NCBI GenBank assembly: GCA_963576725.1
Contig: OY755251.1
Coordinates: 37,020,862 to 37,084,861 of the forward strand
DNA length: 64,000 bases
DNA from: Azorinus chamasolen
Taxonomy: Eukaryota; Mollusca; Bivalvia; Cardiida; Solecurtidae
Reading direction: 5' to 3'
Part shown: piece after piece, positions 11,801 to 41,492 of the stretch
Layout of the letters: every line of letters starts with the position of its first letter
How positions within the stretch are numbered: position 1 is the stretch's first letter
The notes under the pieces: model-generated
What the model was told of the DNA's origin: nothing
What the model saw: only the letters and a program-made list of their open reading frames with translations
Database searches by the model: none
Made by a program: the position numbers and the translations under genes

Positions 11801-14800
11801 AAGGGTTAAGAGACTTTACTAAATACAAAACAAAACTTTCCTATTAACCTATTACCTCAGGCTATTTCTAGATTCTACATAGGATTCTAAAAGGAGCAAT
11901 AATTTGAGGAAAGGATTTTTTTTTAGATTTGTGTAGTGTTGAAACCATTGTGATAAATAGAGCATTTGCTCCTATGGAGCAAATGCTCTATTTATCACAA
12001 TGGTTTCAGAAAGTGGCTTTTACAGAGGTGTCAATATGAAGGAATAGGTTAATTAATATTTGGACCATGTTACTTTTTTGGTATGTACTTACATAGAGAT
12101 ATTTCATAACCATTTACTTGATGAATATTCAGGTAAAACTCCACCCATTATAACTATCAACAGAGATACAGGTAAGTTGTGTATTTTAATCAATTTCAAG
12201 AATAGCTTCTTTATTTCTCTACCAAATCCCTATACTATGACCACTCTTTAGAATCGTCTCAAAGAGACGATTCTAAAGTGTGGTCACAGTATATGGTTTG
12301 GTGGAGAAATGACAATTTTAGTATTTTGGTACGCACCTTTATCTGTAGCTCTGTATCAATTAATTTAACCATTTCAAACGCCTTTCATGCCGTAGCAAAC
12401 AGAGTTGACCCAGATAAGATGGCTCCTTATAGGAGCCATCTGATCAAGGTTTGTTCTGTTTGTTTATGAAATTATATTGATCTGATACTATAGTATTTTT
12501 TTCATGAAGTGATTAATTGATGCAGAAATGTTCATTAGGTAAAGGTTTAATTCAAGAAATATAAAACTAGAAAAAACTGACTCAGAGAGGGCCCTGTAAT
12601 CAAGGGCAGACAACTCTATACATAGTGATCCGATTCAACCCCAAAACTATAGGCATTTTCCTCTGATGATACTAAGCATATGCCCTTAATATGAAACCAA
12701 TAATTATGTGAAGTACTATTTGAGTTACTGCGTTACATCAAAAGTGTTGACGGACGGACAGAAAATGTGATTACTATAGGGTCCCAGCATTTTCAATGCA
12801 GGGCCTAACAGGGACACTTATAGCAGATGATAATCAGAGCTGTAACTACTAGTAGATCTTGATCAGACTGCTCCTAGGGCCATCTGCCTAAAAATTCTTC
12901 TTTGCTAAATGTTCAGATTAGCAAGGTTTTACTATATATTTAACCCTTTAGTCCAATTTTCAATACCTACTGAAAATTCATGGACAAAAATAGTTGTAAT
13001 GAAATATGGAATGTTTAACATTGTAGCCATTTTAGAAACTAAAAAAGCAGATTAAATTGCATTAGCAAACAGAGCAGATCCTATAGGAACCATCTGATCT
13101 GAGTCTTCTCTGTTTGCAAATTTGTGAAAATGTGTTTATATGAGGGAAAGGGATAATTTACTGTACTGTAAAACAATTGTAACGGAAATTGTTCTAAAAA
13201 GGCCATGGGGAAACACTAAACCTAAATTCATACCCCAATTCCACCATTCCATTTATGAATTCCTCTTTAGAGAATTCACACTGTGTTGCAGCCTTGAACT
13301 TCCAAGCCACCAGCAGGACTGTACGTGATTCTGGATTAAGATTTAAGTCTTCCAGAAACTTCATCACTCCATCCACTGTCATCTTGTCCTCTTCATGTGG
13401 ATCTACAACAACAAAACATCTCAACACTGTGCTCCAAACACATACAAAACAGAGCTCTAGATGAAAGTGAGAATTTAGAAAATATAGGTAAAATATTTGT
13501 TTGTTTCTCTGCCAGACCTGAAGTTATCTAAATAGAATCACTTCTCTGACATGATTATAATAAGTACATGTATAATATGTATCGACAAGATGGGGTTTGG
13601 TGGACAAATAACCTACCGTAACTGTAGTGATAGAAATAACTTTTATGATCGATAATCATTACTTTACAAACAATCCAAAAAGATAAATGCTTACTTACAA
13701 GGGCTGTAATATCACATGCACCTATCAGAGTAATTCACATACATGTATGTGTATTCTAAATAGTAATATCAAGCTACTTTCAGTTTTGACAATATCCCAC
13801 AGACGGCACCTGTCTCAAAATTAGCATGCTGTCTTAACCCTTTCCTACATAAATACGCCTTTCTACGCCTCTGTGAAAGTCACTTTTTGAAACCATTGTG
13901 ATAAATAGAGCATTTGCTCTATTTATCACAATGGTTTCAGAACTACACAATTCTAAAATTTTCCTTTTCTCTAGTTAATTTTCCTTTTCGGTAGATTTAT
14001 TCAAAGAGGTTGGATCTAAAAATAGCCTATGAGGGAATGGGTTAAAAGCTAATTGATGAGACTAGTGACTACTGTGATCAGAGTTGTTACTTTTATGCAT
14101 CAAATAATTACAGTAACAGATTATTTTCTACCAGGAGTTCATTATAGTGTATATAATAGGTTCTTATAAGATTACAATTTGTTCTTAGTCATGAAGACTG
14201 AAAGTTACTGTAAGTTTAACCCTTTACTCCATTCCTACACCTCTGCAAACACCTGTTTGCTTCTGGAAATAGTATAGATCTGATTCTACAGTTTCTGCTT
14301 TGGCAAAAATTTCATGTGTTAATATGCAATTTTACAAATTAATCTAATTAATATTCATGTTGTCATCATTTTTTCATGAATATTCATGGAGTAAAGAGTT
14401 GAGATCTTGCATTTCTAGGTGATGATGATCAGCTCAAGAGGTTCATTGCCTGATTTTATTAGTGTTTGAATTAATTCTTGGTCAGACATTTTTCACTTGA
14501 ACGTTTTTTCTTATATTACAAATTGTTATAGATATATATAATTAGCCTTTAATACTTGGTAATTTTAAAGGGGAAGTCCCTACATTTGACGCATTTCATA
14601 AATACCTAAAAAGTACAAAACTCATTTGTTTATATGCTGAAAAGTAGTATATCGCAAGAAAACCTATCCAAATAAACGTTGGAAATGACAAAACATCCAT
14701 GTGTTTGATATCGACAATGATGATCCCGATTTTAATCCCCCAATGTTTCAGTTTTATTTGGGTTGGGTTTTAGTTTCGTATCTGTTCGCACTATTCGCGT

Positions 14801-15964
14801 CTCTCTGACCACTTCCGAGAAAAACTGTTACGTACAGGGATCAGGTGATCATCAGCAAAACGCAGAAAATCTGAATGGAAAAGGCTGATATTTGTTGTAG
14901 AACAACAAAATTTAATATAAGTATTGATGATATCAGTTTATTTTATATCACAGGGGCACTTTTCGATATAAGTTCAAATTGACAACCTTCATGATAATGA
15001 TTGAACATAATGAATCTCAAGTTTTATGAAAATATGCTTTCATTGTAGGGCCTTCTTCTTTAATGAAACAATATATGTTATATGCGGTTTATTTAATTTT
15101 ACAGATTTTCTATTTTTACAGGGTTTTTTGTATTGTTACTGGATAATCTTACTGTGTCGTATAAAAAAGGTTATCTTATCTTAAGACTTAGAGACAAGCT
15201 TGCTATTTATGACATACATACAGTCTTTGAATCATTTATACAGAGGCCCAGATAAGATGTGTAAGTTAAAACATTTTCAAAAATAACTTCTTTATATCTC
15301 CAACAAACCTGATTTTGAGACCAGGTTTTAACTTCGTCTCTTCGGTACGATTCTAAAGAGTGGTCACAACATAGGGTTTGGTGGAGAAATGACGATTTTA
15401 ATACAGGAGTATGCATGTTTATCTGCTGCTCCGTTTATAACATACATGTAGTAATACAAATCGAATAATTTTCTGATTAAATGATTTTCCATAGCAAACA
15501 AACCGATTGATTGGAACACCGTTAGTGTAGCATCTTTAAATTGGTACCTTAATGCATGAACGTGGATGGTTTTACAAGATGGTTGTTGAATGCAGAACGA
15601 AAAAATATGTAGAAGCTCCTCTGGAGCTCTGAATTGACTCAGGTTTTACCTTTATATCGCTGCCATAATGCTTCCAGTCGCTTCTTGTCAACGGTTACCT
15701 TTGAAGACTCATTGTATTTATCAGGGTTTTGGAAGTAATTGTCTACTGCGACGTCTAACTTCCAATCATGACTGCTGAGGCAATGAATTCCTGTCTTTTC
15801 GGTAGTTTGAGTAAAGGCGATAAACTGTCTTACTTTATCCCTCTGGGAGCTTTTAAGTTTATGCTGAAAAAAGAAAATGTAAGATATGCAAGGAATTACC
15901 ATTCGATCATTCACATAAACAAGCTTAATTGAAATCGTTGTAAATAAAGCTAAAGGTTTACCAT
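5788..15964 (-). CDS. DCUN1D1: DCN1-like protein 1 (DCUN1D1), whole CDS span
   Basis: Co-E3 (scaffold) for NEDD8 ligation to cullins. The family binds the cullin WHB domain and the acetylated N-terminus of UBE2M/UBE2F, so it activates cullin-RING ligases in nucleus and cytoplasm. Joining seven exons (15964-15962, 15863-15650, 13402-13234, 11515-11385, 9864-9782, 8317-8221, 5864-5788) gives 774 nt, 257 residues plus TAA, with every junction GT-AG and in phase. Visible features: N-terminal MHKLKSSQ and UBA region (about 8-50), then the PONY domain with [81 protein letters not shown], and C-terminal KSTTV. Human DCUN1D1 has 259 residues by my recollection, and the KSTTV tail favours DCUN1D1 over DCUN1D2. 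Introns 2-6 are filled with MITEs. No canonical polyadenylation signal was recognised. Confidence 0.95.
5962..6269. mobile_element. TA-flanked MITE, TIR CAGTTGAACTTCGATATCTC
   Basis: Terminal inverted repeats CAGTTGAACTTCGATATCTC and GATATTGAAGTTCAACTG about 308 bp apart, with inner GATAACTCGAACTTC-type repeats. A TTGAAGTTTGAGATATTGTCC unit is duplicated at the right end. Pogo/Tc1-like. Lies in DCUN1D1 intron 6. Confidence 0.75.
6326..6533 (+). mobile_element. MITE B
   Basis: The left end is decayed to CTTGACCCATTTCC. The right end is intact GGAGGAAAGGGTTAA. The palindrome is intact apart from single changes. Confidence 0.75.
6537..6727. mobile_element. MITE T
   Basis: TACAGCAAAAACCCACTAAA at the left and GAGGGGCTTTACTGTA at the right. 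The centre AGCTTTTTGCATGACTTTCA is an imperfect hairpin. Confidence 0.75.
6728..7616. other. No gene or named repeat seen (DCUN1D1 intron 6)
   Basis: About 0.9 kb without matches to the repeats defined here. Short open stretches on both strands show no recognisable protein motif. Confidence 0.5.
7617..7690. mobile_element. MITE H fragment
   Basis: TTAAGAATAGCTCCTTTATT, then CTCCACCAAATCCTTTACTG and AATTCTAAAGAGTGGTCAC. Half the hairpin is missing. Confidence 0.55.
7707..8150 (-). mobile_element. MITE A1 split by nested A1
   Basis: A degenerate palindrome ending TTGTTTGCTTA (to about 7790) resumes after the insert as GAATTATACAGAATTGATTA and ends ATGAATATTCATGAGGTGAA. Outer element of an A-in-A nest. 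Confidence 0.6.
7788..8009 (+). mobile_element. MITE A1 nested in A1
   Basis: Starts TTAACATTTTATTCCATGAA. Palindrome around GGCTCCTATAGGATC. Ends TTGAGTAAAGGAGTAA. Confidence 0.7.
8221..8317 (-). CDS. DCUN1D1: DCUN1D1 exon 6
   Basis: 97 nt starting in phase 0 after ACAG. It reads [18 protein letters not shown] and ends NYDEE plus the first base of a Gly codon before donor GTAAGA. Confidence 0.95.
8396..8786 (-). mobile_element. MITE A split by nested A
   Basis: The left 30 bp (TTAACCCTTTACTCCAACGA) and the right part from about 8667 (TGCCTTTGCAAACAGAGTAG to GAAGGGTTAA) flank a second copy. The outer copy has lost its palindrome. Confidence 0.7.
8424..8666 (-). mobile_element. MITE A nested in A
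   Basis: TTAACTCTTTCCCTCATG to GAAGGGTCAA, with an almost perfect palindrome GATGGCTCCTATAGGAGCCA. Confidence 0.75.
8985..9329. mobile_element. MITE T with nested A1
   Basis: Arms GCTTAATGCAGGATGAAAGT and ACTTTCATCCTGCATTAAGC. The right end ACAGGTTTTACTGTA is displaced by the A1 copy at 9104-9302. The left CAGTA end is not clear. Confidence 0.65.
9104..9302 (+). mobile_element. MITE A1 nested in T
   Basis: TTAACCCTTTACTCCATGAG to GGAGTAAAGGGTTAA with a near-perfect palindrome. It lacks the CATGAATATTAATTAG segment of longer copies. Confidence 0.8.
9415..9713. mobile_element. MITE A, fully symmetrical form
   Basis: Both halves are the CATGAATATTCATG-type arm, giving one ~300-bp imperfect inverted repeat centred near CAGACCCTGACCAGACAGGG. 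Ends TTAACTCATGAATA and AAAGGGTTAA. Confidence 0.7.
9782..9864 (-). CDS. DCUN1D1: DCUN1D1 exon 5
   Basis: 83 nt after acceptor TTTCAG. Completes an Asp codon, then reads [16 protein letters not shown] and [10 protein letters not shown], ending in phase 0 before GTATTC. Confidence 0.95.
9971..10450 (+). mobile_element. MITE A interrupted by T
   Basis: The A body TTATAATAGCACATGGACAC resumes after a T insert as GTTGGCCATGGAAGAAACTG, followed by a decayed palindrome and a mirror-image half to about 10450. Termini are unclear. Confidence 0.6.
10001..10205. mobile_element. MITE T, reference copy
   Basis: CAGTAAAACCCTGCTAATGC and GCATTAGCGGGGTTTTACTG termini flanked by TA on both sides (9999-10000, 10206-10207). 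The inner palindrome GAAAGCTCC/GGAGCTTTC continues into AATGCAGGACAAAAGTAATG arms. About 205 bp, no coding capacity. The TA target and CAGTA ends point to Tc1/mariner-pogo mobilisation (inference). Confidence 0.85.
10451..11011. other. No gene or named repeat seen (DCUN1D1 intron 4)
   Basis: AT-rich spacer with no recognised element or coding signal. Confidence 0.5.
11012..11239 (-). mobile_element. MITE B
   Basis: TTAACTCTTTCCTCCATAAA left end. The palindrome's first arm is shortened. The terminal ATAGCCTATGGAGGAAA segment is tandemly repeated, and the end is mutated to GGGTCAA. Confidence 0.8.
11385..11515 (-). CDS. DCUN1D1: DCUN1D1 exon 4
   Basis: 131 nt after acceptor TTTCAG. Reads [17 protein letters not shown], then [20 protein letters not shown] and L. 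Donor GTGAGT. Confidence 0.95.
11542..11809 (+). mobile_element. MITE A1
   Basis: TTAACTCTTTACTCCACGG to GGAGTAAAGGGTTAA. Palindrome partly decayed, with small internal expansions. Confidence 0.75.
11844..12052 (+). mobile_element. MITE B
   Basis: TTAACCTATTACCTCAGGC to GGAATAGGTTAA with a perfect palindrome around CTATGGAG. Confidence 0.85.
12180..12348. mobile_element. MITE H
   Basis: Hairpin CCACTCTTTAGAATCGTCTC / GAGACGATTCTAAAGTGTGG flanked by CTACCAAATCCCTATACT and GTATATGGTTTGGTGGAG. Right end ATCTGTAGCTCTG. Confidence 0.75.
12364..12550 (-). mobile_element. MITE A1, shortened
   Basis: TTAACCATTTCAAACGCC to TAAAGGTTTAA. Palindrome GATGGCTCCTTATAGGAGCC. The far arm is truncated. Confidence 0.7.
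12590..12815. repeat. Unclassified dispersed-repeat-like fragment
   Basis: GGGCCCTGTAATCAAGGGC through GACGGACGGAC to AGGGCCTAACAGGG. The short-motif GGACGGAC and GGGCC ends resemble other dispersed elements of this window, but no second copy is present here. Confidence 0.3.
12950..13156 (+). mobile_element. MITE A2
   Basis: TTAACCCTTTAGTCCAATTT to GAGGGAAAGGGATAA. One palindrome arm is shortened. A T right-end remnant (GCAAGGTTTTACTATA) abuts on the left. Confidence 0.75.
13234..13402 (-). CDS. DCUN1D1: DCUN1D1 exon 3
   Basis: 169 nt after acceptor TTGTAG. Completes the Asp codon, reads [19 protein letters not shown], then [20 protein letters not shown] and MVELG. Donor GTATGA. Confidence 0.95.
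13403..13833. other. Intron sequence, nothing recognised
   Basis: No named element. An isolated GATGGGGTTTGGTGGA near 13588 resembles one H arm. Confidence 0.4.
13834..14045 (-). mobile_element. MITE B with minimal palindrome centre
   Basis: TTAACCCTTTCCTACATAAA to GAATGGGTTAA. The palindrome is reduced to GAGCATTTGCTC/ATTTATCACAATGG, losing the CCTATAGG centre. Confidence 0.85.
14216..14402 (-). mobile_element. MITE A1 without palindrome
   Basis: TTAACCCTTTACTCCATTCC to CATGGAGTAAAGAGTT. The central palindrome is deleted to GCAAACACCTGTTTGC. Confidence 0.7.
14403..15254. other. DCUN1D1 intron 2, nothing recognised
   Basis: A change in texture at about 14560-15180 (GGGGAAGTCCCTACATTTG onward) may be an old dispersed element, but no second copy or inverted ends are seen. 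Confidence 0.35.
15255..15432. mobile_element. MITE H
   Basis: Right arm ATTCTAAAGAGTGGTCACA and GGGTTTGGTGGAGAAATGAC intact, left arm decayed. Ends ATCTGCTGCTCCG. Confidence 0.65.
15541..15632. mobile_element. MITE T fragment, degenerate
   Basis: Traces of TGGTACCTTAATGCA and AGAAGCTCCTCTGGAGCTCT, just downstream of the exon 2 donor. Confidence 0.35.
15650..15863 (-). CDS. DCUN1D1: DCUN1D1 exon 2 (UBA region)
   Basis: 214 nt after acceptor TTTTTTCAG. Begins [19 protein letters not shown], includes [20 protein letters not shown] and LEALWQRYK. Leaves one base of the Asp codon before donor GTAAAA. Confidence 0.95.
15962..15964 (-). CDS. DCUN1D1: DCUN1D1 exon 1, conserved start codon
   Basis: ATG followed directly by donor GTAAAC, so exon 1 supplies only the start Met of MHKLKSSQ. 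This start matches the vertebrate family. The same exon is open upstream to an in-frame ATG at 16042, after a TGA, which would add 26 residues (MATILKDDVDRVVVSRKTHA...). Which ATG is used cannot be decided here. Confidence 0.85.
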
Positions 15965-16042
15965 TTCGACTCCTTTTCTAAAGGCATGGGTTTTACGCGA
16001 AACGACTACTCTATCAACATCGTCCTTCAAAATTGTTGCCAT

Positions 16043-22423: not shown

Positions 22424-22564
22424 TGTAACAGGCTGGTACAGGTACTGGGTGAAAAGCAGTGTAGCAGTTCGGATAGCTCAGTCTGTAGAGCACTCGCCTT
22501 GTAAGTGAGGGGTCCCGGGTTCAATCACCGGTCTGGCTGCATGTTTTTCACCAGTCCTGTTACA
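22424..22564 (+). mobile_element. Short inverted-repeat element carrying a tRNA-like sequence
   Basis: Ends TGTAACAGG...ACTGGGTGAAAA and TTTTTCACCAG...CCTGTTACA are inverted around a tRNA-like core. A related piece ending GGTTACAC occurs near 24590-24650. Confidence 0.65.
22467..22540 (+). tRNA. tRNA-Thr(TGT)-like, probably degenerate or SINE-type
   Basis: A-box-like TAGCTCAGTCTG, anticodon stem CTCGC/GTGAG with 7-base loop CTTGTAA (anticodon TGT, T33 present). The B-box is imperfect (GGTTCAATCAC), the T-stem has a broken invariant 53-61 pair, and the acceptor stem has a mismatch and wobbles. More likely a tRNA-derived mobile sequence than a working gene. Confidence 0.5.
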
Positions 22565-22811: not shown

Positions 22812-23055
22812 TGTTCTTGTTAGGAATTTTATTTCAAGCCAAATACTTGTAAATCAAACTAACACTTCAGATACCTATTGTTACTCTAAAGTTTGGATGG
22901 GGATATCAATTTACATGTCTATTGTCAACAAAATTGTAGTTGGTATGTGGATATCAGTGCACATTTATCCTAAATACTTTAAGTGTAAGGATAGACAAAA
23001 TCTGTAGCAATATTGTATTTTGATTTTTTTCCCTTAATTGTCTAGGTGCCTCTAG
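22812..23055. other. Upstream flank of MSRB3 coding start
   Basis: GATTTTTTTCCCTTAATTGTCTAG at 23021-23045 looks like a splice acceptor, so an untranslated first exon probably lies upstream. An A right-end remnant sits at 22783-22811. Confidence 0.45.
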
Positions 23056-23264
23056 ATGAGATTTGAATTATCGCTCAACATTTTTTTCTGGATGAACATC
23101 TTGCACCTCGTCACAGCAAAGAAAGAAAACTCTCCTGCTCTTGAGAAATTGAAAGCAACATGTAAAGACACTGCAACATGTCCTGTAAGTTTTCCCAAGG
23201 AGGATCTGAAAGAAAAACTCACTCCAGAGCAGTACAGAGTGACACAGGAGAAAGGCACAGAAAG
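23056..23264 (+). CDS. MSRB3: MSRB3 first coding exon
   Basis: 209 nt: [20 protein letters not shown], a candidate signal peptide, then a Lys-rich linker with [16 protein letters not shown] and the start of the MsrB domain. Donor GTAAGA leaves two bases of an Arg codon. Confidence 0.9.
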
Positions 23265-26200
23265 GTAAGATTTCAAAATATACAGTACCAGTAACTAAGT
23301 GCTGGATTGAAATTATGTTGAGGATGGTGGAGTATTTTTGATTAAACATAATCTACTTGTATCCATTAACCTTTCCCCCATGAATACTTATCCCTTTCCC
23401 TGTTCTATGTTTATTCCAAATTTCAATACCTACTGAATATTCATGGACAAAGTTGTTATATCGAAATATAGAAGGTGGAACAGTGTAGACATTTTAGAAA
23501 GCAAAGAAACAGAACTATCAAATTCTATGAGCAAACAGAGCAGACCCTGATCAGACGGCTCCTCTAGGAGCCGTCTGATCTGGGTCTACTCTGTTTGCAA
23601 ATGAGTGAAAACACGTTTATATGAAAGGGTTATTTAAGAATTTATGACTGTATGAATATTCATGAGCTGAATTTCATAATTACACATTAACAATGAAATG
23701 TTTGGCTGTGATAGAAATGTTAGAATCAGATCTATATTATTCCATAAGCAAACAGAGCAGACCTTGATCAGACAGTTCCTACAGGAGATATTACTTGATG
23801 AATATTCATGTAAGAAATGATTACATTAAATTTATTAGATGAATTGTTATAAAGGTTTATGAGTGTTGGCCTTAGCAGAAACTAGAATCTGATATATATA
23901 ATACTTAATAAAGCAAACAGAGCAGACCCTGATCAGATGCTTCATGCTGGAATACATCTTTCTATGTTGTTTGCTTATGAAATGATATACAGTATATTGG
24001 GGATATTTCGAGGACCACCGGGAATCAACAAAAACATCGGATTATTGCGATGCTCGAAAGAACCGAGAGCATTTTGTGACTGTCATTTCCTAAGGCAGAA
24101 AGCGTATTTCTTCACAGTCTGCACCTTTTTTAACATTATCATAAAATTCAACCTGTATAACACATATATAATGCACCGATTCTTTCCTTATATAACTGAT
24201 AACGGAAAACACCATTCACATCGGCGACCGAGGTATCACTATAGTTTGTATGGGTCCGTTCAATGGACCCTTCACAATAAACCCAAAATTTGTTTCAAAC
24301 CGTAAGACATATCCCTAGAACAGTCATAGCTTATATCGTTATACTAATGGATATTAGATACAGTTCACATTTTCTTATCTCCTTACAGGCCATACACTGG
24401 CAAACATCTTGAAAACAATGATGAGGGCTCGTTCAGATGTGTAGTTTGTGGTAACAGAATATTCTCGTCCGAGGATAAATTCAACGCTCACTGTGGATGG
24501 CCGGCCTTTTCAAAAGTTTTGAAGAATGAGAATGTTACATTGACGGATGATTTCTCTCATGGTTAGTATACCTGTGCTCGTATCTTGGCGGCCCGGGTTC
24601 GATCCCCGGTCTGAGCGGGTATGTTTCTTTATAAGAACACCCGGTTACACTTGCCTTTAACCCATTACCTCATAGGATATTTTTAGCTCACCAGAGCACT
24701 TTTGTGATCGCCCGTTGTCCGTCGTCCGTCGGCGTGCGTCGTTCGTCGTCAACAATTTGAACCTTTAAAAATCTTCTCCTCTGAATCTACAAGGTTCTCA
24801 TCTTTCATCTTTGGCACATAGTATCATCTTTAGGTCCTCTACAAAAGTTATATAAATTATGCCCCTGGGGTCAAAATTGGCCCCGCCCCAGGGGTGCCTT
24901 GTTTTCAGTAGAAACATATAGTAAAAGTTTGAAAATCTTCTCCTCTTAAACCAGAACGTTCTCAGCTTTCATATTTGGCACATAGCATCATGTCCAGGTC
25001 CTCTACAAAAGTTATATAAATTATGGCCCTGGGGTCAAAATTGGCCCCGCCCCAGGGGTGGGCAGTTTTCAATAGAAACAAATAGTGAAATCTTTGAAAA
25101 TCTTCTTCTCTGTAACTGGAAGTCTCTCAGCTTTCATATTTGGCACAGAGCATCATGTTCAGGTGCTCTACAAAAGTTATATAAATTATGGCCCTGGGGT
25201 CAAAATTGGCCCCGCCCCAGGGGTGGGCAGTTTTCAATAGAAACAAATAGTGAAATCTTTGAAAATCTTCTTCTCTGAAACTGCAAGTCTCTCAGCTTTC
25301 ATATTTGGCACAGAGCATCATGTTCAGGTCCTCTACAAAAGTTATATAAATTATGGCCCTGGGGTCAAAATTGGCCCCGCCCCAGGGGTGCCTTGTTTTC
25401 AATAGAAACATATAGTAAAACTTTGAAAATCTTCTCCTCTGAAACCAGAAGGTTCTCAGCTTTCATATTTGGCACATAGCATCATGTTCAGGTCCTCTAC
25501 AAAAGTTATATAAATTATGGCCCTGGGGTCAAAATTGGCCCCGCCCCAGGGTTGGGCAGTTTTCAATAGAAACAAATAGTGAAATCTTTGAAAATCTTCT
25601 TCTCTGTAACTGGAAGTCTCTGAGCTTTCATATTTGGCACAGAGCATCATGTTCAGGTCCTCTACAAAAGTTATATAAAGTATGGCCCTTGGGTAAAAAT
25701 TGGCCCCGCCCCAGGGGTGGCCAGTTTTCAATAGAAACATATAGTAAAACTTCGAAAATCTTCTTCTCTGAAACTGGATGGCTCTCAGCTTTCATACTTG
25801 GCACACAGCATCATGTTCAGGTCCTCTACAAAAGTGATATAAATTATGACCCTGGGGTCAAAATTGGCCCCACCCCAGGGGTGGGCAGTTTTCAATAGAA
25901 ATAAATGCATGTAGGGAAAACTTTGAAAACCTTCTCCTCTGAAACTAGAAGGTTTTCAGCTTTCATATTTGGCACATAGCATCATGTCCAGGTCCTCTAC
26001 AAAATATGTATAAAATATGGCCGCAGGGTCAAAATTGGCCTCGCCCCAGGGTCAAAATTGGCCCCGCCCCAGGGGTGGGCAGTTTTCAATAGAAACAAAT
26101 AGTGAAATCTTTGAATATCTTCTTCTCTGAAACTGGAAGGTTCTCAGCTTTCATATTTTGCACATAGCATCATGTTCAGGTCTTCTACAAAAGTTATATA

Positions 26201-28609
26201 AATTATGGCCCTGGGGTGAAAATTGGCCCGCCCCAGGGGTAGCCAGTTTTCAATAGAAACATATAGTGAAAACTTTGAAAATCTTCTCGTCTTATACTGG
26301 AAGGTTCTCAGCTTTCATATTTGGCACATAGCATCATGTTCAGGTCCTCTACAAAAGTTATATAAATTGTGCCTCTTGGGTCAAAATTAGCTCCGCCCCA
26401 GGGCAGGCTAGTTTTCTATAGAAACATATAGTCAAAACTTTGAAAATCTTCTCCTCTGATTGTCTGGTGAGCGCTTCAGGGCCATTCTGGCCCTCTTGTT
26501 TTTATCTAACCACTTAGAATAAATCTACCGAAAAGGAGCATTAACTAGAGAAAAGGAAAATTTCAGAATTTTGTAGTATAAAACCATTGTGATAAATAGA
26601 GCATTTGCTCCTATAGGAGCAAATGCTCTATTTATCACAATGGTTTCAACATGTGGCATCTGCAGAGGCGTCAAAAGGCGTCAATATGAGGGAATGGGTT
26701 AAAAAGGGAAAACTCAACACTTAATGAATATTTATGGAGTAAAGGGTTAATCTGCAAGAAGTTTGAAATCACTTTTATGATTAACCGTTTACTCCAAACT
26801 TTTTATGTTAGAATTGATACAATCCTGAACATTAATAGGATGGATTTTTAATGAAGGCAAGAAGTTATAGCCACGGCAGAAGCTGTAGAATCAGTTCTAT
26901 ATTTTATTTTACAAGCAAACAGCATACCATGATACGGGTCTACCCTGTTAATAAAGATGCCAAAAGGTCTGTCTATGGAGTAAAGCGTTAACCCTTCCCT
27001 CCATGAATATTTATGTAAGAAATAATGACATCATGAATATTAATTAGATTAATTGTTAAAATAGCACATGGACATAGAACTTTTTGGCAATGGTTAAAAC
27101 TGTAGAATCGTATCTATATATTTTTCATAAGCAAACATATAGGAGCCGTCTGATCTGGGTCTACTCTGTTTGCAAAGGTGTAGAAAGGCGTATTTATGGA
27201 GTAAAGGGTTAACCTTCAGCACTCTACTGGTCAGTGGTGAATTCCTGACAGCCTTTGCCAAAGTTTGGATGCATATCTTAGCACGTCATCAGCATCCAGA
27301 CTGTCTGAAATACTAATCATGCTTCTGACAGAATGTTTGCCTATTATGGCAGGGTTCCAGATAAGATGTGTTAATTAACCCTTTCCTCCGTAAATATGCC
27401 TTTCTATGCCTCTGTAAAAGTCACTTTTTGAAACCATTATGATAAATAGAGCATTTGCTCCTAAGGAGTTTTTCAGAACTACAAAATTCTAAAAAATTTC
27501 CTTTTCTCTATTTAATGCTCCTTTTCGGTAGATTTATTGAAAGAGGTTGGATTTAAAAATAGCCTATGAGGGAATGGGTTAAAACATTTTCAAGAATAAC
27601 TCCTTTATTTCTCCACCAAACCCTATGCTGTGACCAGCATAGGGTTTGGTGGAGAAATGACGATTTTAGTATTTGAGTAAGCACTTTTATCTAATGCTCT
27701 GTTATGGGTCTGACATTGACCTGAATTTACTGTTTATGCATTGACAAAAATTACCTTGTTCAAAATGCCATAATAAGAATTTCATCTAATTTACCCTCAT
27801 TTGTATGTCTTTAAGTGCCTTTGTAAACATGGTAAACCCAGATCAGATGGCTCCTGTAGGAACTGTCTGATCAGGGTTTCTCCTGTTTGTTTATGGGTCT
27901 GATCTATATCTGTTTTTAGCTCCCCTTGCACAAAGTAGATGGCGAGGAGTTTATATCAGATCCAATTAAGATTAATCCTTTTCCTGATGAATATTGATGT
28001 AAGAAACATTAACTGTACGAGTATTAACCCATTACCTCATAATCTATTTTTAGAACCCACCTCTTTAAATAAATCTACCGAAAAGGAGCATTTACTAGAG
28101 TAAATATTTGTTTTAGAATTGGGTAGTTGGGAAACCATTGTGGTAAATGGAGCATTTGTTCCTATGGAGCAAATGCTCTATTTATCACAATGGTTTCAAA
28201 AAGTGACTTTTACAGAGACATCATAAAAGGCATCAATATTAGGGAATGGGTTAATAAGCTGAATTTATATAATTGCATTATGAATGAGGAAGGTTTTTAC
28301 AAAGGCAGAAACTGTAGAAATAAATCTGTATTATTTCATAAGCAAACAGAGCTACCATCTTATTAGGTAAAAGTTTTTTTGATAAATAAAAAGTTTAATG
28401 GTCGCCTCATTTCTCTCTCAGGCATGAAGCGTATTGAGGTCACATGCTCAAACTGTGGTGCCCATCTTGGCCATTTGTTTGACGATGGACCCCCACCCTC
28501 TGGCAAGAGATTCTGCATCAATTCAGCTGCTTTAGAATTTGAAAAGCATCCCATTGAAAAAAAATCCTCTGATAGAAAGACACCCCCAAAAGTCAGATCT
28601 GAGCTTTGA
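23056..28609 (+). CDS. MSRB3: Methionine-R-sulfoxide reductase B3-like, isoform A (RSEL end)
   Basis: Reduces methionine-R-sulfoxide in proteins or free Met. Exons 23056-23264, 24389-24561 and 28422-28609 join in phase to 189 residues plus TGA. First ATG after an in-frame TAG. Residues 1-22 are hydrophobic and signal-peptide-like. KRLTP-like [18 protein letters not shown] matches the MsrB family. Zinc Cys pairs are C87/C90 and C136/C139, probable resolving Cys C105 in HCGWP, catalytic Cys C159 in RFCIN (TGC, not selenocysteine). The RSEL tail resembles the KAEL of ER MSRB3A, so an ER-lumen location is inferred. AATAAA at 28630-28635 follows the stop. Confidence 0.92.
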
Positions 28610-31600
28610 ATTGTATGAAGCTGAATAATAATAAAAACAGTACTGACAGTTTGTTTTGTGTCTGTATGCTTTCAAATCCAAAACCCCTGATTACCCTTAG
28701 TATTTGGATACCCAATCTTATTACCAGAGGTCCAAATAGGCTGCGTATATTAAAACATTTTCAAGAATAACTACTTTATTTCTCCGCCAAACCCTATAGC
28801 TATTGCCCTTGAACTTTGTGCGTTCATTGCTTTGTCGGTCAACTTATGGTTTGTCTGTTGTTTTCTGGGAAAACTATTACCGATAAAAGTAAAGTACCTA
28901 GTTATAGTCTACTTTCAGTCCGAATGACCGCTCAGCCGACTGTAAAAAGGGTATTAATGAAACTTCACACAAATATTTTATGCAACAAAATCTGAAGATG
29001 AGATGATTTTGAGGCTCATTCAGTTTATTGTGTCACCTACCGAGAGGCAGTGTGTCACTTAGGGATCACTTTTCCGTCGTCTCTATGTCTCTCTGTCTGT
29101 CTTTTTTTTTGGCTGTCATTTCTAAATTAATCATTATAGAGCTTTCAAATTTCACATGTGTCTTCCTCTCATTGAGGACCATTGATGTAACTAAGGTCCA
29201 TCACTCTGCATGCAATACTTTTTGAGTTATCCCCCTTTGTTCTGATTTCACTCCAGCATATTAACAGGTTTTGTGTCAGCTGAAAGCAGGTGACACATGT
29301 GTTCCTCCGAACACTCTTGTTGTTACAAAGTTTTGGTCCTAGCACTTTACAAAAATCAGCAAATATTAGCATGACCGTAACTTTTTTATTTAATAAGATA
29401 TTCACTTCAATTTTTATACGCCCATCTTCAGACGGGAAGTATTATGTCGTGGCGCTGTCTGTCAGTCAGTCCGTGAACATTTGCTTATCTGCTCTCTAAC
29501 TCAAACAAATGCTATCCAATCCGTTTCAAATTTTGTCAGCAAGTGTATTACCATAATGTCTCGGTCAAGTTCGATAACCAGCAAGATTGCCAAAGACACT
29601 CCAGAATTATCTCCCCTTACTTTATGAATTTTCTTGAATTTTTGCTTGTCCACTCTCTAACTCAAACAAATGTAATCCAATCTTTTTCAAATTTTGTCAG
29701 CATGTATGTTACCATAATGTCTCAGTCATGGTCGTTAACCAGCAAAACTGCGCCAGTCATTCCTGAATTATACCTCCTTACTTTATGAATTTCCGTGAAT
29801 TTTTGCTTGTCCGCTAACTCGAACAAAGGTAATCTAATCCTTAGTCAGTATGAATATTACCATAATGTCTCAGTCAAGTTAGAGAGACAGCAAGATTGTC
29901 TCTGACACTCAAGAATTATCTCCCCTTATTTTATGAATTTCGGTGAAGTTTTGCTTGTCTGCTCTCTCACTCTAACAATTGTAATCCAATCCTTTTCGAA
30001 ATTGGTCAACATGTATACTACCATAATGTCTCATTCAAATTCGATAAATAGCAAGATTACCCTTGATACTCCACAATTATCTCCCCTTTATGCCACCTGA
30101 TATAGAGTAATGGCCTTTCAACGTCCAGACATTTGATGGGCGTATATTGTGACATTTTGGCTCTCTTGTTTTATATAATATCACCTTAATATGGAGATCA
30201 TGATCTAAAGCACAAATTAGAAAATGTCAACACTTCTTATAAGGCATATAGAATTAGAGAAACTGGAGGCTATTTAAAATAAGGTAATTTTAATGCAGTA
30301 TTTTTAAAAAAAAAATCCCCCCTTCCATGGATAAATCCTGCATTCTTTTACAAGTGATGAGGGATTTCTCCAAGTGGGCATATCAAGTACTGTAAGCAGT
30401 ATTTCTCCATAAAAATGTCACAGGTAGCAGTATCAAACTGACTTTGTGATGTATATTTTCTGTGCGTTATTGGAATATGGACAATTCTAGAATTGCCCTG
30501 CACGTTTTGGGAATTCCAATAATGGCGGACAGTATTGGAATTCCTAAAATGCGCAGGGCGATTCTAGAATGGTCAGTGCGCGTTTTTGGAATAGTGGACA
30601 AAGTTGGAATTCTCCATTTACATACATTTATAGATTTTCAAGCGTAGTCTATTTTATTCATCACCTATATGAATTGTATTGTACGACTCTCAGACAGATT
30701 CCAGTAGAATGGTTGTTAGTATATTCTGTAATCTCGTGTTTATAATAAATCATTATCGACTTCATTTAAGTCATGCCGATTGATATGTGAAACATTGTTT
30801 CACACAAATTACACCACCTTTAGTAAAACAAAGTGTACCAGCATCAAACTGCTTTCCTCGCCTAACAATAGTAGATCCAAACAACAATTAATAAAAAGTT
30901 ATAAGGTAATAATTAAGACAAACAAACCAACTTTAGAAGAAACAAAGCGAACCCACATCCAACTGTTTATAAAGTTCTCGCCACACAATAATAGATTAAA
31001 AAACAATAAATACCAAAAATAATAAGGTAATAATGACCACAAAACAAACCAATTTTAGAAAAACAAAAACTTATAGTGTACCCGCATCTAATTCTCTTTT
31101 TTTCTCGCCGAACAATAGTAGATCATAAAAACAGTGCTAATCACAGAGCCTAATGTAATTGTGCCTTGCACGATTCTAGAATCGCGCAGGGCAATTCTGG
31201 AATGGTCCGCCATTATTGGAATTCCTAAAATGCGCAGTGCAATTCTAGAATTGTCCATATTCCAATAATGCGCAGAACATGTATATACTGGTACATCATA
31301 CTTGTAACTATACCCTACTGTACTGGGCTCTTCCATATAGAGTGATTTTGAAAAATAAATGATAAATACCGTACTTAAATAGAACAAGAATTTCTTCGAT
31401 ATTTACACATAATTTGAATGCATACTGTTATATTCCTGCAAAACATGGAATCTAAATTTGAATTGGAATATATACAATGAATTATAGTCCAAATTACAAA
31501 ATTAAGTGAGAGTAAAAGTGAAAATGAGACTGGCTTCAAAATGGAATCACTGGGGTACAAACAAATAAAGCTTTATAGGGGGATTTGCACTTGAATAGCC

Positions 31601-33455
31601 ACACTCACTGCAGTAGCATATGCACAGTGGAGGAGCCTATGAAATAATATGGATATGATTCTACAGTTTCTCTTAGCCAAATATTCCTATGTGCATGTGC
31701 CATTATAAACATTAATTGGTTCCTATAGGAGCCATTAAATCAGGTCTGCTCTGTTTGCCTATGAAATAATATAGATATCTTTATGATTCTACAGTTTCTG
31801 TCTGAGCCAAACCATCCTATGTATATATGCCATCATAAAACCTGTGCTAATAATTATTTATGATGTCATTATTCCTTACATAATTACATAAAACAGGGAA
31901 AGGGTTAAAAGATCAATAATGGGTTGGTATTTAAGTGTTTGTAATATTGAGTTTTTACTGTAATATAAAAATGTTACCTGAGAAAAGAGTGTGGATGTGT
32001 TGCAAACAATGGGAAATTTAAGTGTGCAGATACTCAGCAAGATGTAGAATGCACCCTGTGTGTTTAGCCCTTTGCCTGATGAATATTCATGTAAAATATA
32101 ATAACACCATGAAAATTTATTAGCTGAACTTTATAATGGTACATATGTACAGGAACAGAGGAATTTTGGTCGAGGCAGCAGCTGTAGAATTCCATAAACT
32201 AACTTCTATAAAAGTCGTCTGATCTGAGTCTACTTTGTTTTTACAAAGGTGTCCAAAGTCAACTCGGGTATGGTAAAATCCCTCTAAACTGAAATTCTAG
32301 TAGAGAAGAATTTAGATACTTTTAAGCAGGTGGTTGCTTAATGCAGGGTGAAAGTCGTGCAAAAAGCTCCTAGAGGAGCTTTCTGCATGACTTTCACCTG
32401 CATTAAGCTGCCACCTGTCTTCAAAACTGATATTTATTCTATATTGAATGTCAGGTTTAGAGGTATTTTACTGTTAACCCTTTCCCACATAGGCTATTTT
32501 TAGACCCAACCTCTTTGAAAAAAATTATCGAAAAGGAGCATTAGGAAAAGGAAAATTTTAGAATTTTGTTGTTCTGAATGTCAAACCATCATGATAAATA
32601 GAGCATTTGCTCCTTAGGAGCAAATGCTCTATTTATCACAATGGTTTCAAAAAGTGACATTTACAGAGGCGTAGAAAGGCGCATTTATGGAGGAAATGGT
32701 TAAAGATTTGCAGTAACAAGTGTAGGATAAGAGAGAACTCTATGCTTCAGTTGCATGTATCAATATTTCAATATCGGATCGCCTTCAGTTACATGTATCA
32801 ATATTTCAATATCAGATTGACTTCAGTTACATGTAAAGTAAAACCCTTCTAAACCGGATGTTAAATTCCCCATGGGTTTGTTAAAGTGAATAAGTCAATC
32901 TGGCACCACCTTGATATCTTTGAATTAAACAGACATAGTAGCAAGTTGTGTAGTAGCAAGTGGTGTAGACTCGGATCAAATTCATCCTTCAGAAGCAGTT
33001 TGCTTGTCTGAATATTTAGGGTAATTAAGGTAGGTCAGTCTTGGTTCAGTAAATTTTTAAAGATACATGCTTTGCATTGTCTGCTCTCTATAAAGATATT
33101 ATGATAGGGCTCAAGATAAGATGCATTAATTGAAATGTTTTCAAGAATAACTCCTTTATTTCTCCGCCAAACCCTATACTATGACCACTCTTTAGAATTG
33201 TCTGTTCGAGACGATTCTAAAGAGTGGTCACAGTATAGAGTTTGGTTGAGAAATGATGATTTTAGTATTTGGGTACGCACCCTTATCTGTAGCTCTGATT
33301 ATGATTTTCTTTCAGGAAGTAAGAGGGTTGAGGTCAAATGCTCGGACTGTAAAGCCCACCTTGGTCATGTGTTTGACGATGGACCCAAACCGACAGGCAT
33401 ACGATACTGTATCAACTCTGCATCGCTGGATTTCAAAAAGGAGACCACAGTTTGA
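23056..33455 (+). CDS. MSRB3: Methionine-R-sulfoxide reductase B3-like, isoform B (ETTV end)
   Basis: Exons 23056-23264 and 24389-24561 joined to 33316-33455 instead of the proximal terminal exon give 173 residues plus TGA. The alternative exon supplies C136/C139, [10 protein letters not shown] and catalytic C159 in RYCIN, so the domain is complete. It differs from isoform A at CSDCK (Lys after the second CxxC) and ends FKKETTV without a retention-like tail. Use of this exon needs the 28422 exon and its polyadenylation signal to be skipped. Predicted from sequence only. Confidence 0.85.
23366..23790 (+). mobile_element. MITE A1 split by nested A2
   Basis: Left TTAACCTTTCCCCCATGAAT (23366-23391). 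The body resumes at 23630 (TATGAATATTCATGAGCTGA) and is truncated in its palindrome near 23790, where a further A1 left half (23790-23980) begins. In MSRB3 intron 1. Confidence 0.65.
23389..23633 (+). mobile_element. MITE A2, reference copy, nested in A1
   Basis: A2 differs from A1 by its left half: TTCTATGTTTATTCCAAATT, ACCTACTGAATATTCATGGA, GAAATATAGAAGGTGGAACA. The palindrome CAGACGGCTCCTCTAGGAGC and right half GCAAATG...GAAAGGGTT are as in A1. The target here is TTAT, not TTAA. Confidence 0.8.
23975..24360 (+). mobile_element. Fragment related to the 960-bp CAGTAAAACGG element
   Basis: Shares AACACCATTCACA, GGACCCTTCACAATAAACCC and TAGAACAGTC with 18520-18720, without clear termini. Sits immediately before the second MSRB3 coding exon. 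Confidence 0.6.
24389..24561 (+). CDS. MSRB3: MSRB3 second coding exon
   Basis: 173 nt after acceptor CCTTACAG. Reads [20 protein letters not shown] to [21 protein letters not shown] and TLTDDFSH plus the first base of Gly. Donor GTTAGT. Carries the first zinc CxxC and the probable resolving Cys. Confidence 0.95.
24587..24655 (+). repeat. tRNA-derived fragment with intact B-box
   Basis: GGCCCGGGTTCGATCCCCGG contains a canonical B-box and T-stem, but no 5' tRNA half precedes it. Likely a SINE or the tRNA-bearing element, truncated. Starts 25 bp past the exon 2 donor. Confidence 0.5.
24686..26498 (+). mobile_element. Helentron-like element G2 inside MITE B
   Basis: Starts at TTTTTA|GCTCACCAGAGCACTT. 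Ends GTCTGGTGAGCGC, hairpin GGGCCATTCTGGCCC, TCTTGTTTTT. The interior is a tandem array. Same termini as G1. No coding capacity. Flanking T-runs mean an exact target duplication cannot be called. Confidence 0.65.
24770..26450 (+). repeat. About ten 165-bp tandem units
   Basis: CTCTACAAAAG-type landmarks fall at about 24837, 25001, 25166, 25331, 25495, 25660, 25825, 25995, 26184 and 26347, mostly 164-165 bp apart. Each unit holds GGGGTCAAAATTGGCCCCGC and CAATAGAAACA. Open frames through it are a product of repetition. Confidence 0.9.
26781..26991 (+). mobile_element. MITE A1
   Basis: TTAACCGTTTACTCCAAAC to GGAGTAAAGCGTTAA. Palindrome largely deleted. Shares its right TTAA with the next copy. 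An A right-end remnant (GGAGTAAAGGGTTAA) lies at 26734-26748. Confidence 0.75.
26988..27212 (+). mobile_element. MITE A1, palindrome arm deleted
   Basis: TTAACCCTTCCCTCCATGAA to GGAGTAAAGGGTTAA. The left palindrome arm is lost (GCAAACATATAGGAGCCGTC). Confidence 0.8.
27213..27345. mobile_element. MITE E-like fragment
   Basis: CAAAGTTTGGATGCATATC and CAGCATCCAGACTGTCTG resemble the E family half-palindrome GGATCCAAACTGTTT. Ends not resolved. Confidence 0.35.
27350..27710 (+). mobile_element. MITE H split by nested B
   Basis: CAGGGTTCCAGATAAGATGT then, after the B insert, TTTCAAGAATAACTCCTTTA and a shortened hairpin CTATGCTGTGACCAGCATAG. Right end TCTAATGCTCTG. Confidence 0.7.
27375..27582 (-). 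mobile_element. MITE B nested in H
   Basis: TTAACCCTTTCCTCCGTAAA to GGGAATGGGTTAA. The second palindrome arm is deleted (CTAAGGAGTTTTTCAGAAC). Confidence 0.8.
27725..27935 (-). mobile_element. MITE A fragments
   Basis: A right-half remnant (27725-27795) followed by TTTACCCTCATTTGTATGTC and palindrome GATGGCTCCTGTAGGAACTG. Truncated on the right. Confidence 0.5.
27972..28365 (+). mobile_element. MITE A1 split by nested B, truncated next to MSRB3 exon
   Basis: TTAATCCTTTTCCTGATGAA to the internal TTAA at 28024. Resumes TTAATAAGCTGAATTTATAT and stops at GCAAACAGAGCTACC, 57 bp before the terminal exon. Confidence 0.75.
28024..28254 (+). mobile_element. MITE B nested in A1
   Basis: TTAACCCATTACCTCATAAT to GGGAATGGGTTAA. 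Perfect palindrome. Same internal A1 position as the nest at 2732. Confidence 0.85.
28422..28609 (+). CDS. MSRB3: MSRB3 alternative terminal exon 3a
   Basis: 188 nt after acceptor TCTCTCTCAG. Reads [40 protein letters not shown], then a Lys-rich tail ending VRSEL and TGA. Confidence 0.95.
28630..28635 (+). terminator. Polyadenylation signal of the RSEL isoform
   Basis: AATAAA 21 bp after the stop, followed by a GT-rich stretch (GTTTGTTTTGTGTCTG) at about 28650-28665, the usual layout of a cleavage site. Confidence 0.75.
28747..28802 (+). mobile_element. MITE H left fragment
   Basis: ACATTTTCAAGAATAACTAC and TTTCTCCGCCAAACCCTAT, then truncated. Confidence 0.6.
29030..29325 (+). mobile_element. 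Helentron-like element J1
   Basis: TGTGTCACCTACCGAGAGGC at the left. AGGTGACACATGTG, then hairpin GTGTTCCTCCGAACAC and TCTTGTT at the right. GTGTCACC/GGTGACAC are subterminal inverted repeats. A deletion derivative lies at 45495-45578. Confidence 0.6.
29415..30172 (+). mobile_element. Element J2, TACGCCCATC/GATGGGCGTA ends
   Basis: ATACGCCCATCTTCAGACGG follows a TTTTT run. TTTGATGGGCGTATATTGTG, then GGCTCTCTTGTTTTAT at the right. The interior has about four 150-bp units (CTAACTCAAACAAATG..., ACCATAATGTCTC, ATTATCTCCCC). Shares the TCTTGTT terminus with G1, G2 and J1. Confidence 0.6.
30173..30460. other. Spacer, nothing recognised
   Basis: No named repeat or coding signal in MSRB3 intron 2. 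Confidence 0.4.
30461..31275. mobile_element. Inverted-repeat element rich in GGAATTC motifs
   Basis: Left GCGTTATTGGAATATGGACA, then ATTCTAGAATTGCCCTGC and GGAATTCCAATAATGGCGGA. The right end is its reverse complement ending TATTCCAATAATGCGCAG. TIR over 80 bp with internal inverted sub-repeats. No transposase. Target duplication not resolved. Confidence 0.8.
30805..31120 (+). repeat. Three ~122-bp units inside the GGAATTC element
   Basis: ACCACCTTTAG, ACCAACTTTAG and ACCAATTTTAG landmarks at about 30813, 30928 and 31048. Each is followed by AAACAAAG/AAACAAAAA and AACAATAGTAGAT-type motifs, diverged. Confidence 0.6.
31277..31610. other. Spacer, nothing recognised
   Basis: AT-rich, no named repeat. 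Confidence 0.4.
31628..31907 (-). mobile_element. MITE A, two reverse bodies in tandem
   Basis: TATGAAATAATATGGATATG and TATGAAATAATATAGATATC bodies lie one after the other, with a partial palindrome GGTTCCTATAGGAGCC between. Ends GGGAAAGGGTTAA. Confidence 0.6.
32066..32262 (+). mobile_element. MITE A1, degraded
   Basis: TAGCCCTTTGCCTGATGAAT through CATGAAAATTTATTAGCTGA. Palindrome mostly lost. Right terminus absent. Confidence 0.65.
32271..32473. mobile_element. MITE T
   Basis: TATGGTAAAATCCCTCTAAA to GAGGTATTTTACTG, with palindrome AAAGCTCCTAGAGGAGCTTT and long arms. The right flank TTAA is taken by the next B. Confidence 0.8.
32474..32703 (+). mobile_element. MITE B
   Basis: TTAACCCTTTCCCACATAGG to GGAGGAAATGGTTAA. 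Perfect palindrome CTCCTTAGGAG. Confidence 0.85.
33106..33297 (+). mobile_element. MITE H, reference copy, 8-bp target duplication
   Basis: ATTATGAT at 33098-33105 and 33298-33305 flank an element starting AGGGCTCAAGATAAGATG and ending CTTATCTGTAGCTCTG, with hairpin ACCACTCTTTAGAATTGTCT/AGACGATTCTAAAGAGTGG. The end sequence and 8-bp duplication fit hAT. It lies 10 bp (beyond the duplication) from the acceptor of MSRB3 exon 3b. Confidence 0.9.
33316..33455 (+). CDS. MSRB3: MSRB3 alternative terminal exon 3b
   Basis: 140 nt after acceptor TTTCTTTCAG. Reads [49 protein letters not shown]. Same entry phase as exon 3a. No AATAAA was seen in the following 180 bp. Confidence 0.92.
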
Positions 33456-33634
33456 CCTTGGCATGAGGGTCAGTCTTATGACTGGCCAGGAGTAGTGTAT
33501 ACATAGAGACTGATTGTGCTGTTGGATTTGACCTGTTGAATGCTGAATGTTCAAAATGGAATGCTTCATCAGTGTTTAATGATTGAGTTGAATGAATATG
33601 AAAGGATTGTACTGATACATTGTAATACATTGTA

Positions 33635-36989: not shown

Positions 36990-37692
36990 TTAACCCCTTA
37001 AAGCCCTTTACTTGATAAGGATACCTTTTAATGCCTTTGCAAACAAAGTAGACCTAGATCAGATGGCTCTTGTCTGCTCATGGAATACAAACAAAGTAGA
37101 CCTAGATCAGATGGCTCTTGTCTGCTCATGGAATACAAACAAAGTAGACCTAGATCAGATGGCTCTTGTCGGCTCATGGAATACAAACAAAGTAGACCTA
37201 GATCAGATGGATCTTGTCTGCTCATGGAATACAAACAAAGTAGACCTAGATCAGATGGCTCTTGTCTGCTCATGGAATACAAACAAAGTAGACCTAGATC
37301 AGATGGCTCTTGTCTGCTCATGGAATACAAACAAAGTAGACCTAGATCAGATGGCTCTTGTCTGCTCATGGAATACAAACAAAGTAGACCTAGATCAGAT
37401 GGCACTTGTCTGCTCATGGAATACAAACAAAGTAGACGTAGATCAGATGGCTCTTGTCTGCTCATGGAATACAAACAAAGTAGACCTAGATCAGATGGCT
37501 CTTGTCTGCTCATGGAATACAAACAAAGTAGACCTAGATCAGATGGCTCTTGTCTGCTCATGGAATACATGTAATATAGATCTGAATCTCTATGTGCCAT
37601 GGTCAAAATGTTATTTGAAAATTTCAGCCATATGATATTTACCCGGTATAGTTATTATTTCTTACATGAATATTTATAAGGTAACAGGTTAA
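36990..37692 (-). mobile_element. MITE A with internal minisatellite expansion
   Basis: TTAACCCCTTAAAGCCC, decayed right-half CCTTTTAATGCCTTTGCAAA, then the 48-bp array, then GATCTGAATCTC...ATTATTTCTTACATGAATAT and GGTAACAGGTTAA. The palindrome region has been replaced by the array. Confidence 0.75.
37040..37567 (+). repeat. 48-bp tandem repeat, 11 copies
   Basis: The unit CAAACAAAGTAGACCTAGAT...GCTCATGGAATA recurs every 48 bp with only scattered single-base changes, exactly 528 bp. It is one A palindrome arm plus neighbouring sequence. As 48 is divisible by 3, long open frames run through it on both strands. They are not genes. Confidence 0.97.
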
Positions 37693-41055: not shown

Positions 41056-41289
41056 TAACACAACATCATATAGTGCCAAGTCTCTTCATTTGTAAAGCTA
41101 TAGTCTATTTTAGATAGCTTCATTTACGTAACAAAATATGTAACGTCTGTAAATTGTGAGGTTTTCAGTGAATTGTAAAGTTCTCTGTAAACTGTAAAGT
41201 TGTCGTCTGCTACAAGTCTAAGAGTACACAGTTCTTCCATTTCTTTAAAAATCAGAAACAGTGCCAGAGTATCAAACTGTTTGTATGCT
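41056..41289. other. Spacer with E-like traces
   Basis: GTAAAGTTGTCGTCTGCTAC and CAAACTGTTTGTATGCTG resemble E. No gene. Confidence 0.35.
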
Positions 41290-41445
41290 GATGAGATGTG
41301 GAGTTACTTGAAGTCTCTTCTGGATCCTGATGAGATGTGGAGTTACTTGAAGTCTCTTCTGGATCCTGATGAGATGTGGAGTTACTTGAAATCTCTTCTG
41401 GATCCTGATGAGATGTGGAGTTACTTGAAGTCTCTTCTGGATCCT
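41290..41445 (+). repeat. 39-bp tandem repeat, 4 copies
   Basis: GATGAGATGTGGAGTTACTT...TCTTCTGGATCCT repeats at 41290, 41329, 41368 and 41407 with one or two differences. Embedded in E-like sequence. The open frame through it is incidental. Confidence 0.95.
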
Positions 41446-41492
41446 GACAGCTTGCAAAGGCAATTACAAATTGGTCTGTAGTGTTGAAAAGT

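Follow-up and report, generated by a model that had tools for sequence, protein, structure and literature searches.

Very probably, the MSRB3-type gene of the bivalve Azorinus chamasolen is a single gene that owes its two alternative last exons to an ancient doubling of the catalytic exon; one of them would complete an ER form of the enzyme and the other a form freed from ER retention. The gene spans 10.4 kb of the 64-kb stretch of genomic DNA analyzed here (the window), and by its sequence it is a predicted methionine-R-sulfoxide reductase.

Gene structure and domain content

All parts of the gene lie on the + strand. Coding exon 1 (23056-23264; donor GAAAG/GTAAG) contains a leader, an MNILH start, a CX5C cysteine pair, and the beginning of the SelR domain. 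Coding exon 2 (24389-24561; acceptor TTACAG, donor ATG/GTTAGT) encodes the first zinc CxxC and the GWP motif and is common to both forms. Terminal exon 3a (28422-28609) encodes the second CxxC, HLGH, the catalytic Cys, and the tail KVRSEL; the alternative terminal exon 3b (33316-33455), which begins 4.7 kb downstream of 3a, encodes the same elements followed by the tail KKETTV. The introns are all GT-AG, and the acceptors of 3a and 3b each consist of a pyrimidine tract ending in CAG. A previous sequence-only reading had proposed that both terminal exons follow exon 2 in the same phase and differ in their tails (i.e., RSEL versus ETTV). The exon coordinates and the donor after position 24561 proved exact, both joins are in phase 1, and the two tails are read from open spliced frames of 570 nt (3a form) and 522 nt (3b form), stop included, with predicted products of 189 aa (form A) and 173 aa (form B).

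An AATAAA poly(A) signal (28630-28635, +) begins 21 nt past the stop of 3a, with a GT-rich stretch next to it. Within 745 nt past 3b, neither AATAAA nor ATTAAA was found, and variant signals only are present (e.g., AATACA at 33624). At the other end of the gene, a candidate 3' splice acceptor read from the sequence (TTGTCTAG and 10 nt preceding the ATG; 23044-23055, +) suggests an upstream 5' exon. An N-terminal extension by upstream read-through is ruled out by an in-frame TAG immediately 5' of the ATG at 23056.

Nearly the whole Pfam SelR profile (PF01641) is covered by form A (E = 1e-48) and form B (E = 7e-49). The domain occupies residues 55 to 168/169 (114-115 residues), and the ~41 residues supplied by exon 3 contain the catalytic Cys as well as two of the four zinc cysteines. 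As the earlier reading had it, 3a and 3b alike encode the second CxxC, the HLGH motif (AHLGHxFDDGP), and the catalytic Cys, which lies in R[FY]CINS. Its further claim that the 3'-end choice replaces half of the catalytic domain along with the tail holds in that catalytic sequence and tail would be swapped together, as relatives show, but the share is about a third (~41 of 114-115 residues). Both zinc CxxC motifs and the catalytic Cys in its R[YF]CINS context are present in the two forms when aligned to relatives and, for form B, also when aligned to its best solved relative, human MSRB3 (6qa0; E = 2e-51). The two corresponding isoforms of Mya arenaria, modeled with AlphaFold from one set of 55 rows (mean pLDDT, 85.3 for X2 and 83.6 for X1), each match human MSRB3 (6qa0), with a TM by target of 0.88 and 0.89, respectively, suggesting that the exon swap preserves the fold.

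Used as a tblastn query, 3a recovered 3b in the window (E = 8e-20; 69% over 42 aa). The next exon-3 match had an E value of 0.32, so there is no third copy on either strand of the 64 kb. Exons 1 and 2 occur in one copy each (tblastn of exon pieces), and the next-best window matches for pieces 1, 2, and 3 had E values of 2.9, 1.2, and 0.32. Among the first 41 residues of 3a and 3b, 28 are identical and 13 differ. Over these 41 codons, pS is 0.60 versus a pN of 0.19 (pN/pS, ~0.3), by which both copies look constrained, i.e., held by selection.

The exon pair in relatives and its age

Relatives were collected as 286 proteins from three protein searches, taking the best 120 matches of each, with the candidates limited to about 8000. 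The same exon pair, which the sequence-only reading had named as something to look for in related genomes, was found among annotated or assembled sequences in two further cases. In Mya arenaria, the NCBI isoforms X1 (P0007, ending KSEL) and X2 (P0004, ending ETTV) are identical at 126 of 126 positions up to the exon-2/exon-3 boundary, past which 25 of the first 41 residues are identical. Likewise, P0196 (named after Crassostrea angulata X2; QTTV) and P0203 (KSEL) share 127 of 131 residues before the boundary and 24 of 41 past it. The forms of these relatives are alike before exon 3 and different after it, which agrees with the earlier view that the choice is made at the 3' end. P0196 represents 33 member sequences from 33 contigs, and P0203 has 8 members and a 912-base contig; the contig of P0003 (TTV) has 975 bases. 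Given the 10.4-kb length of the gene, contigs of 975 and 912 bases are likely to be spliced cDNA, and the same is probably true of other short "lgn" contigs (0.9-1.6 kb). A further Mya model, P0005, runs from part of 3a into 3b, with the 3a segment that carries the catalytic Cys absent. It is probably a mis-joined prediction, and it suggests that the 3a-3b order exists in Mya too.

Among the matches listed, TTV ends occur in the bivalves Mactra, Dreissena (X2), and Tegillarca besides Mya and the Crassostrea type, in 12 named gastropods (i.e., Littorina, Batillaria, Plakobranchus, three Elysia, Bradybaena, Lymnaea, Physella, Aplysia, Biomphalaria, and Bulinus), in the chiton Liolophura, and in the nemertean Lineus. 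KSEL ends were seen, among the same matches, in Ruditapes X1, Potamilus, Saccostrea X1, Pinctada, Patella X1, Lottia, and Lingula X1. Of the 28 rows of the TTV type, 27 end in TTV itself and P0009 in TTDK, and the pattern across TTV relatives is -[HEQ]TTV. Many relatives show one tail type only among the matches listed, for which single-isoform annotation may be the reason. Two Haliotis MSRB proteins (P0194 and P0195) end in SGDL, which is neither KSEL nor TTV; their ER retrieval may be altered.

To date the duplication, a tree was built from the exon-3 core, cut up to the F before the tail (39 columns; unrooted). Its 42 rows are forms A and B of the window plus 40 relatives selected from the 286 so that the named animals were covered; P0005 and another seven TTV rows stayed outside the tree. 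By tail, 21 rows are TTV (including P0009 with TTDK), 17 are xEL (including the two Haliotis SGDL proteins and five non-lophotrochozoan rows), and 4 have neither. One branch of this unrooted tree (support, 93/90) separates TTV from xEL with 1 change in the tail label; the split was recovered in 92% of bootstrap trees, and 0 of 500 shuffles scored as low. The four rows with neither tail, from arthropods or tardigrades, fall on the xEL side.

For the part before exon 3, the same 42 rows require 9 changes. On this exon 1-2 tree, the tail label remains somewhat clustered (a count as low came up in 10 and in 15 of 500 shuffles), as would be expected if entire lineages show a single type. Here, the two Crassostrea-type proteins come together (100/94), the two Mya sequences do not differ, and neither do the two window forms, which share exons 1 and 2; the window groups with Mactra, Mya, and Dreissena (97/86), marking it as DNA from their bivalve kin. 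One change in the exon-3 core versus nine before exon 3 is the pattern of one old alternative exon, so the pair looks like the product of a single old exon duplication rather than a fresh duplication in each species. When the two exons of one species were held together, the AU test rejected the arrangement for Mya (p = 0.002) and rejected it for neither the window (p = 0.17) nor Crassostrea (p = 0.15).

These data bear on other accounts of 3b. It might be a relic or cryptic exon, unused in A. chamasolen, which would suit the absence of a canonical poly(A) signal close to it; however, its frame, splice site, and zinc and catalytic residues are intact, and a pN/pS of ~0.3 between the copies together with the near-constant TTV tail of its type (27 of 28 rows, with P0009 ending TTDK) makes disuse very improbable. 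We give almost no credence to the idea of another MSRB gene in tandem, made up of 3b and upstream exons of its own. A duplicated catalytic exon 4.7 kb downstream of 3a is what such a gene would leave, but the 64 kb hold no second copy of exon 1 or exon 2 (best other match, E = 1.2), and the Mya and Crassostrea-type forms have their pre-exon-3 part in common. The chance that 3b is spliced only after 3a, as 3' untranslated region or as a fusion like P0005, appears just as slight: P0005 does join part of 3a to 3b, but it looks mis-joined in lacking the catalytic-Cys segment of 3a, and the other TTV rows pass from exon 2 sequence directly into the TTV exon.

Leader, tails, and predicted location of the two forms

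The preferred reading, one gene with two alternative last exons, implies a competition between splicing to 3a, which is the proximal exon and is supplied with an AATAAA, and passing over it to 3b, the outcome of which would decide the protein. With 3a, the product would be an ER-luminal reductase that combines a leader, CX5C resolving cysteines, and a KDEL-like tail. With 3b, the same fold would be completed, ER retention would be dropped, and a fixed -[HEQ]TTV end would be added, so that form B would act outside the ER.

The hydrophobic leader comprises the 12 residues from the first to the second in-frame ATG (23056-23091, +), and it was recognized from hydropathy and from equivalent leaders in bivalve relatives. 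With the residues that follow, it is a putative signal peptide. The second Met opens a conserved MNILH (23092-23106, +) and is a possible alternative start, as judged from its invariance and from the annotated starts of relatives: M13, N14, and L16 are invariant in the 21 sequences aligned, and MNILH is the annotated start of the gastropod, chiton, and nemertean TTV relatives. Both start codons in the window have T at -3. The N-terminus of some vertebrate MSRB3 isoforms such as P0212, NLLHLVT, resembles MNILHLVT in the window; we take isoforms of this type to be mitochondrial.

N-termini were compared over 49 rows (the 42 tree rows plus seven), which are not independent, as the window and Mya stand in both classes. 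A hydrophobic leader precedes MNILH in 8 of 28 TTV rows and in 10 of 12 lophotrochozoan xEL rows, Lottia and Lingula being without it. The CX5C pair (CKDTATC in the window), which corresponds to resolving cysteines in human MSRB3 (PMC7475093), is present in all 12 lophotrochozoan xEL rows, in 8/8 leader-bearing TTV rows, and in none of the 20 leaderless TTV rows; cutting the region more accurately and counting again left these numbers unchanged. Of the five xEL rows outside the lophotrochozoans, one has the pair. Among the 20 leaderless TTV rows, nine retain at least two cysteines, spaced differently, and 11 have one or none; P0198, also among these 20, starts with a longer stretch that is not hydrophobic. 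Where the TTV exon alone was seen among the matches listed, leader and CX5C are both absent.

The C-terminal RSEL of form A resembles KAEL and KSEL and is a putative retrieval signal. The description of 3a as ER-retained in appearance was therefore reasonable, given the hydrophobic leader, RSEL itself, KSEL in bivalve relatives, and the acceptance of the human tail, KAEL, as KDEL-like (PMC7475093). Form B ends in ETTV, which is not KDEL-like, and it is thus not counted as ER-resident. Class I PDZ ligands follow the C-terminal pattern x-S/T-x-hydrophobic, a loose pattern that ETTV fits and that KSEL fits too. ETTV has been called PDZ-binding in Stbm, and it links GPR124/Frizzled to Dlg4/Magi3 (PMC4818920 and PMC11765499); by analogy, PDZ binding by the tail of form B is a guess.

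For form B, a cytosolic location by way of the second start, MNILH, is the one we favor, at about even odds. The leaderless TTV relatives, which start at MNILH, point that way, and a cytosolic form B could bind PDZ scaffolds through its TTV-type tail. In bivalves, however, the leader is present in both annotated forms, which leaves a cytosolic form B less than clear-cut. The main rival is that translation of form B begins at the first start and that the product is secreted or enters the secretory pathway, in which case the switch would be between an ER-resident and an extracellular repair enzyme. In both forms the ORF begins at the first ATG, and all eight bivalve-type TTV rows have the leader before MNILH, but 20 of the 28 TTV rows have neither hydrophobic leader nor CX5C pair, so that the TTV exon probably functions outside the secretory route in those animals, and it is hard to see what purpose a PDZ-type tail would serve either within the ER lumen or outside the cell. 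We regard secretion as rather unlikely.

Returning to alternative last exons with form B outside the ER, a wider scenario can be put forward tentatively, although we lean against it: a gene of "two starts by two ends," in which the duplication would predate the mollusc-nemertean split, leader plus KSEL would give an ER enzyme, and MNILH plus TTV would give a cytosolic reductase anchored on PDZ scaffolds. TTV-only lineages would then have lost the leader and the ER-type CX5C, the gene changing compartment by exon loss. Apart from this scenario, address and part of the active site appear to change together in the gene, an arrangement that might fit the enzyme to its compartment and electron donor. 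The correlation among tail type, leader, and CX5C opens this idea to testing: a CX5C relay (PDI-type donors) would be required by the ER form and not by the TTV form.

Comparable systems and the surrounding window

Human MSRB3 has alternative first exons whose forms are sent to different places (PMC1431549), as the sequence-only reading correctly stated. It shares a CX5C pair and two zinc CxxC motifs with the bivalve gene, which would likewise serve different destinations from one gene and whose RSEL is a putative counterpart of the KDEL-like human tail (KAEL). The human switch is in the first exon; the proposed bivalve switch would lie in the last and would exchange, together with the tail, roughly a third of the domain. 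Alternative splicing is also predicted to alter the location of Drosophila MsrB (SelR), although there by first-exon choice between cytosol and mitochondria (PMC1431549). Mouse MsrB1 is alternatively spliced at its 3' end, around the stop signal, but this concerns a rodent-specific intron around the stop and 3' untranslated region, and the account of it in PMC2901347 contains no duplicated catalytic exon. In the literature cited, MSR location is set by first-exon choice or by separate genes.

Mya arenaria MSRB3-like X1 and X2 have the same exon pair and tail types but are an NCBI database prediction for which we found no published description. An oyster transcriptome study counts four MSRB3 entries, undescribed in the passages concerned (PMC4892480); PMC5371997 proved to be a ciliate MsrB paper and was set aside. 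KRAS4A/KRAS4B likewise have homologous, mutually exclusive last exons that encode the end of the catalytic domain and a localization tail, kept for 450 My (PMC9882654, a preprint). The protein is unrelated to MSRB3, and its two human forms differ at four residues of the G domain (PMC9882654); in the bivalve gene the two exons differ at 13 of 41 residues, with the catalytic Cys inside the swapped exon. We infer that 3a and 3b are alternative last exons of the KRAS kind from their homology and frame in the window and, for the alternation, from the sequences of relatives. First-exon MsrB switching, MsrB1 stop-region forms, the KRAS terminal-exon swap, and the bivalve pair as database isoforms were already known; a description of the MSRB3 last-exon pair appears to be new, as no paper among those listed from the literature searched, which mostly lies outside subscription journals, dealt with alternative terminal exons of an MSRB3.

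Elsewhere in the window, 10 of 80 ORFs of at least 75 aa were compared with Pfam. On the - strand, pieces of a neighboring DCUN1D/DCN1-like gene are suggested by an exon with UBA_4 (15642-15977; E = 3e-12) and by a Cullin_binding match that did not reach the cutoff (9713-10102; E = 0.0014). The piece at 13197-13523 (-), which had no Pfam match, may belong to the same gene by resemblance. Hairpins at 33155-33275 (-66.7 kcal/mol), ending ~60 nt 5' of exon 3b, and at 27604-27661 (-45.6 kcal/mol) were considered as a structural cue for the choice between 3b and 3a. They belong to a dispersed fold-back repeat, one end of which has 14 window matches with at most 3 mismatches, so no regulatory role is claimed. 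The intron after exon 2 contains about ten copies of a 164-base tandem repeat (24763-26459). Tandem arrays at 37040-37569, 53403-53639, and 41288-41447 (48-, 48-, and 39-base units; 98-99% matches) are open in two or three frames and so yield long spurious ORFs. Just upstream of the MSRB3-type gene, a tRNA-like RF00005 match (22467-22539, +; 39.7 bits) may represent either a tRNA gene or a repeat derived from one.
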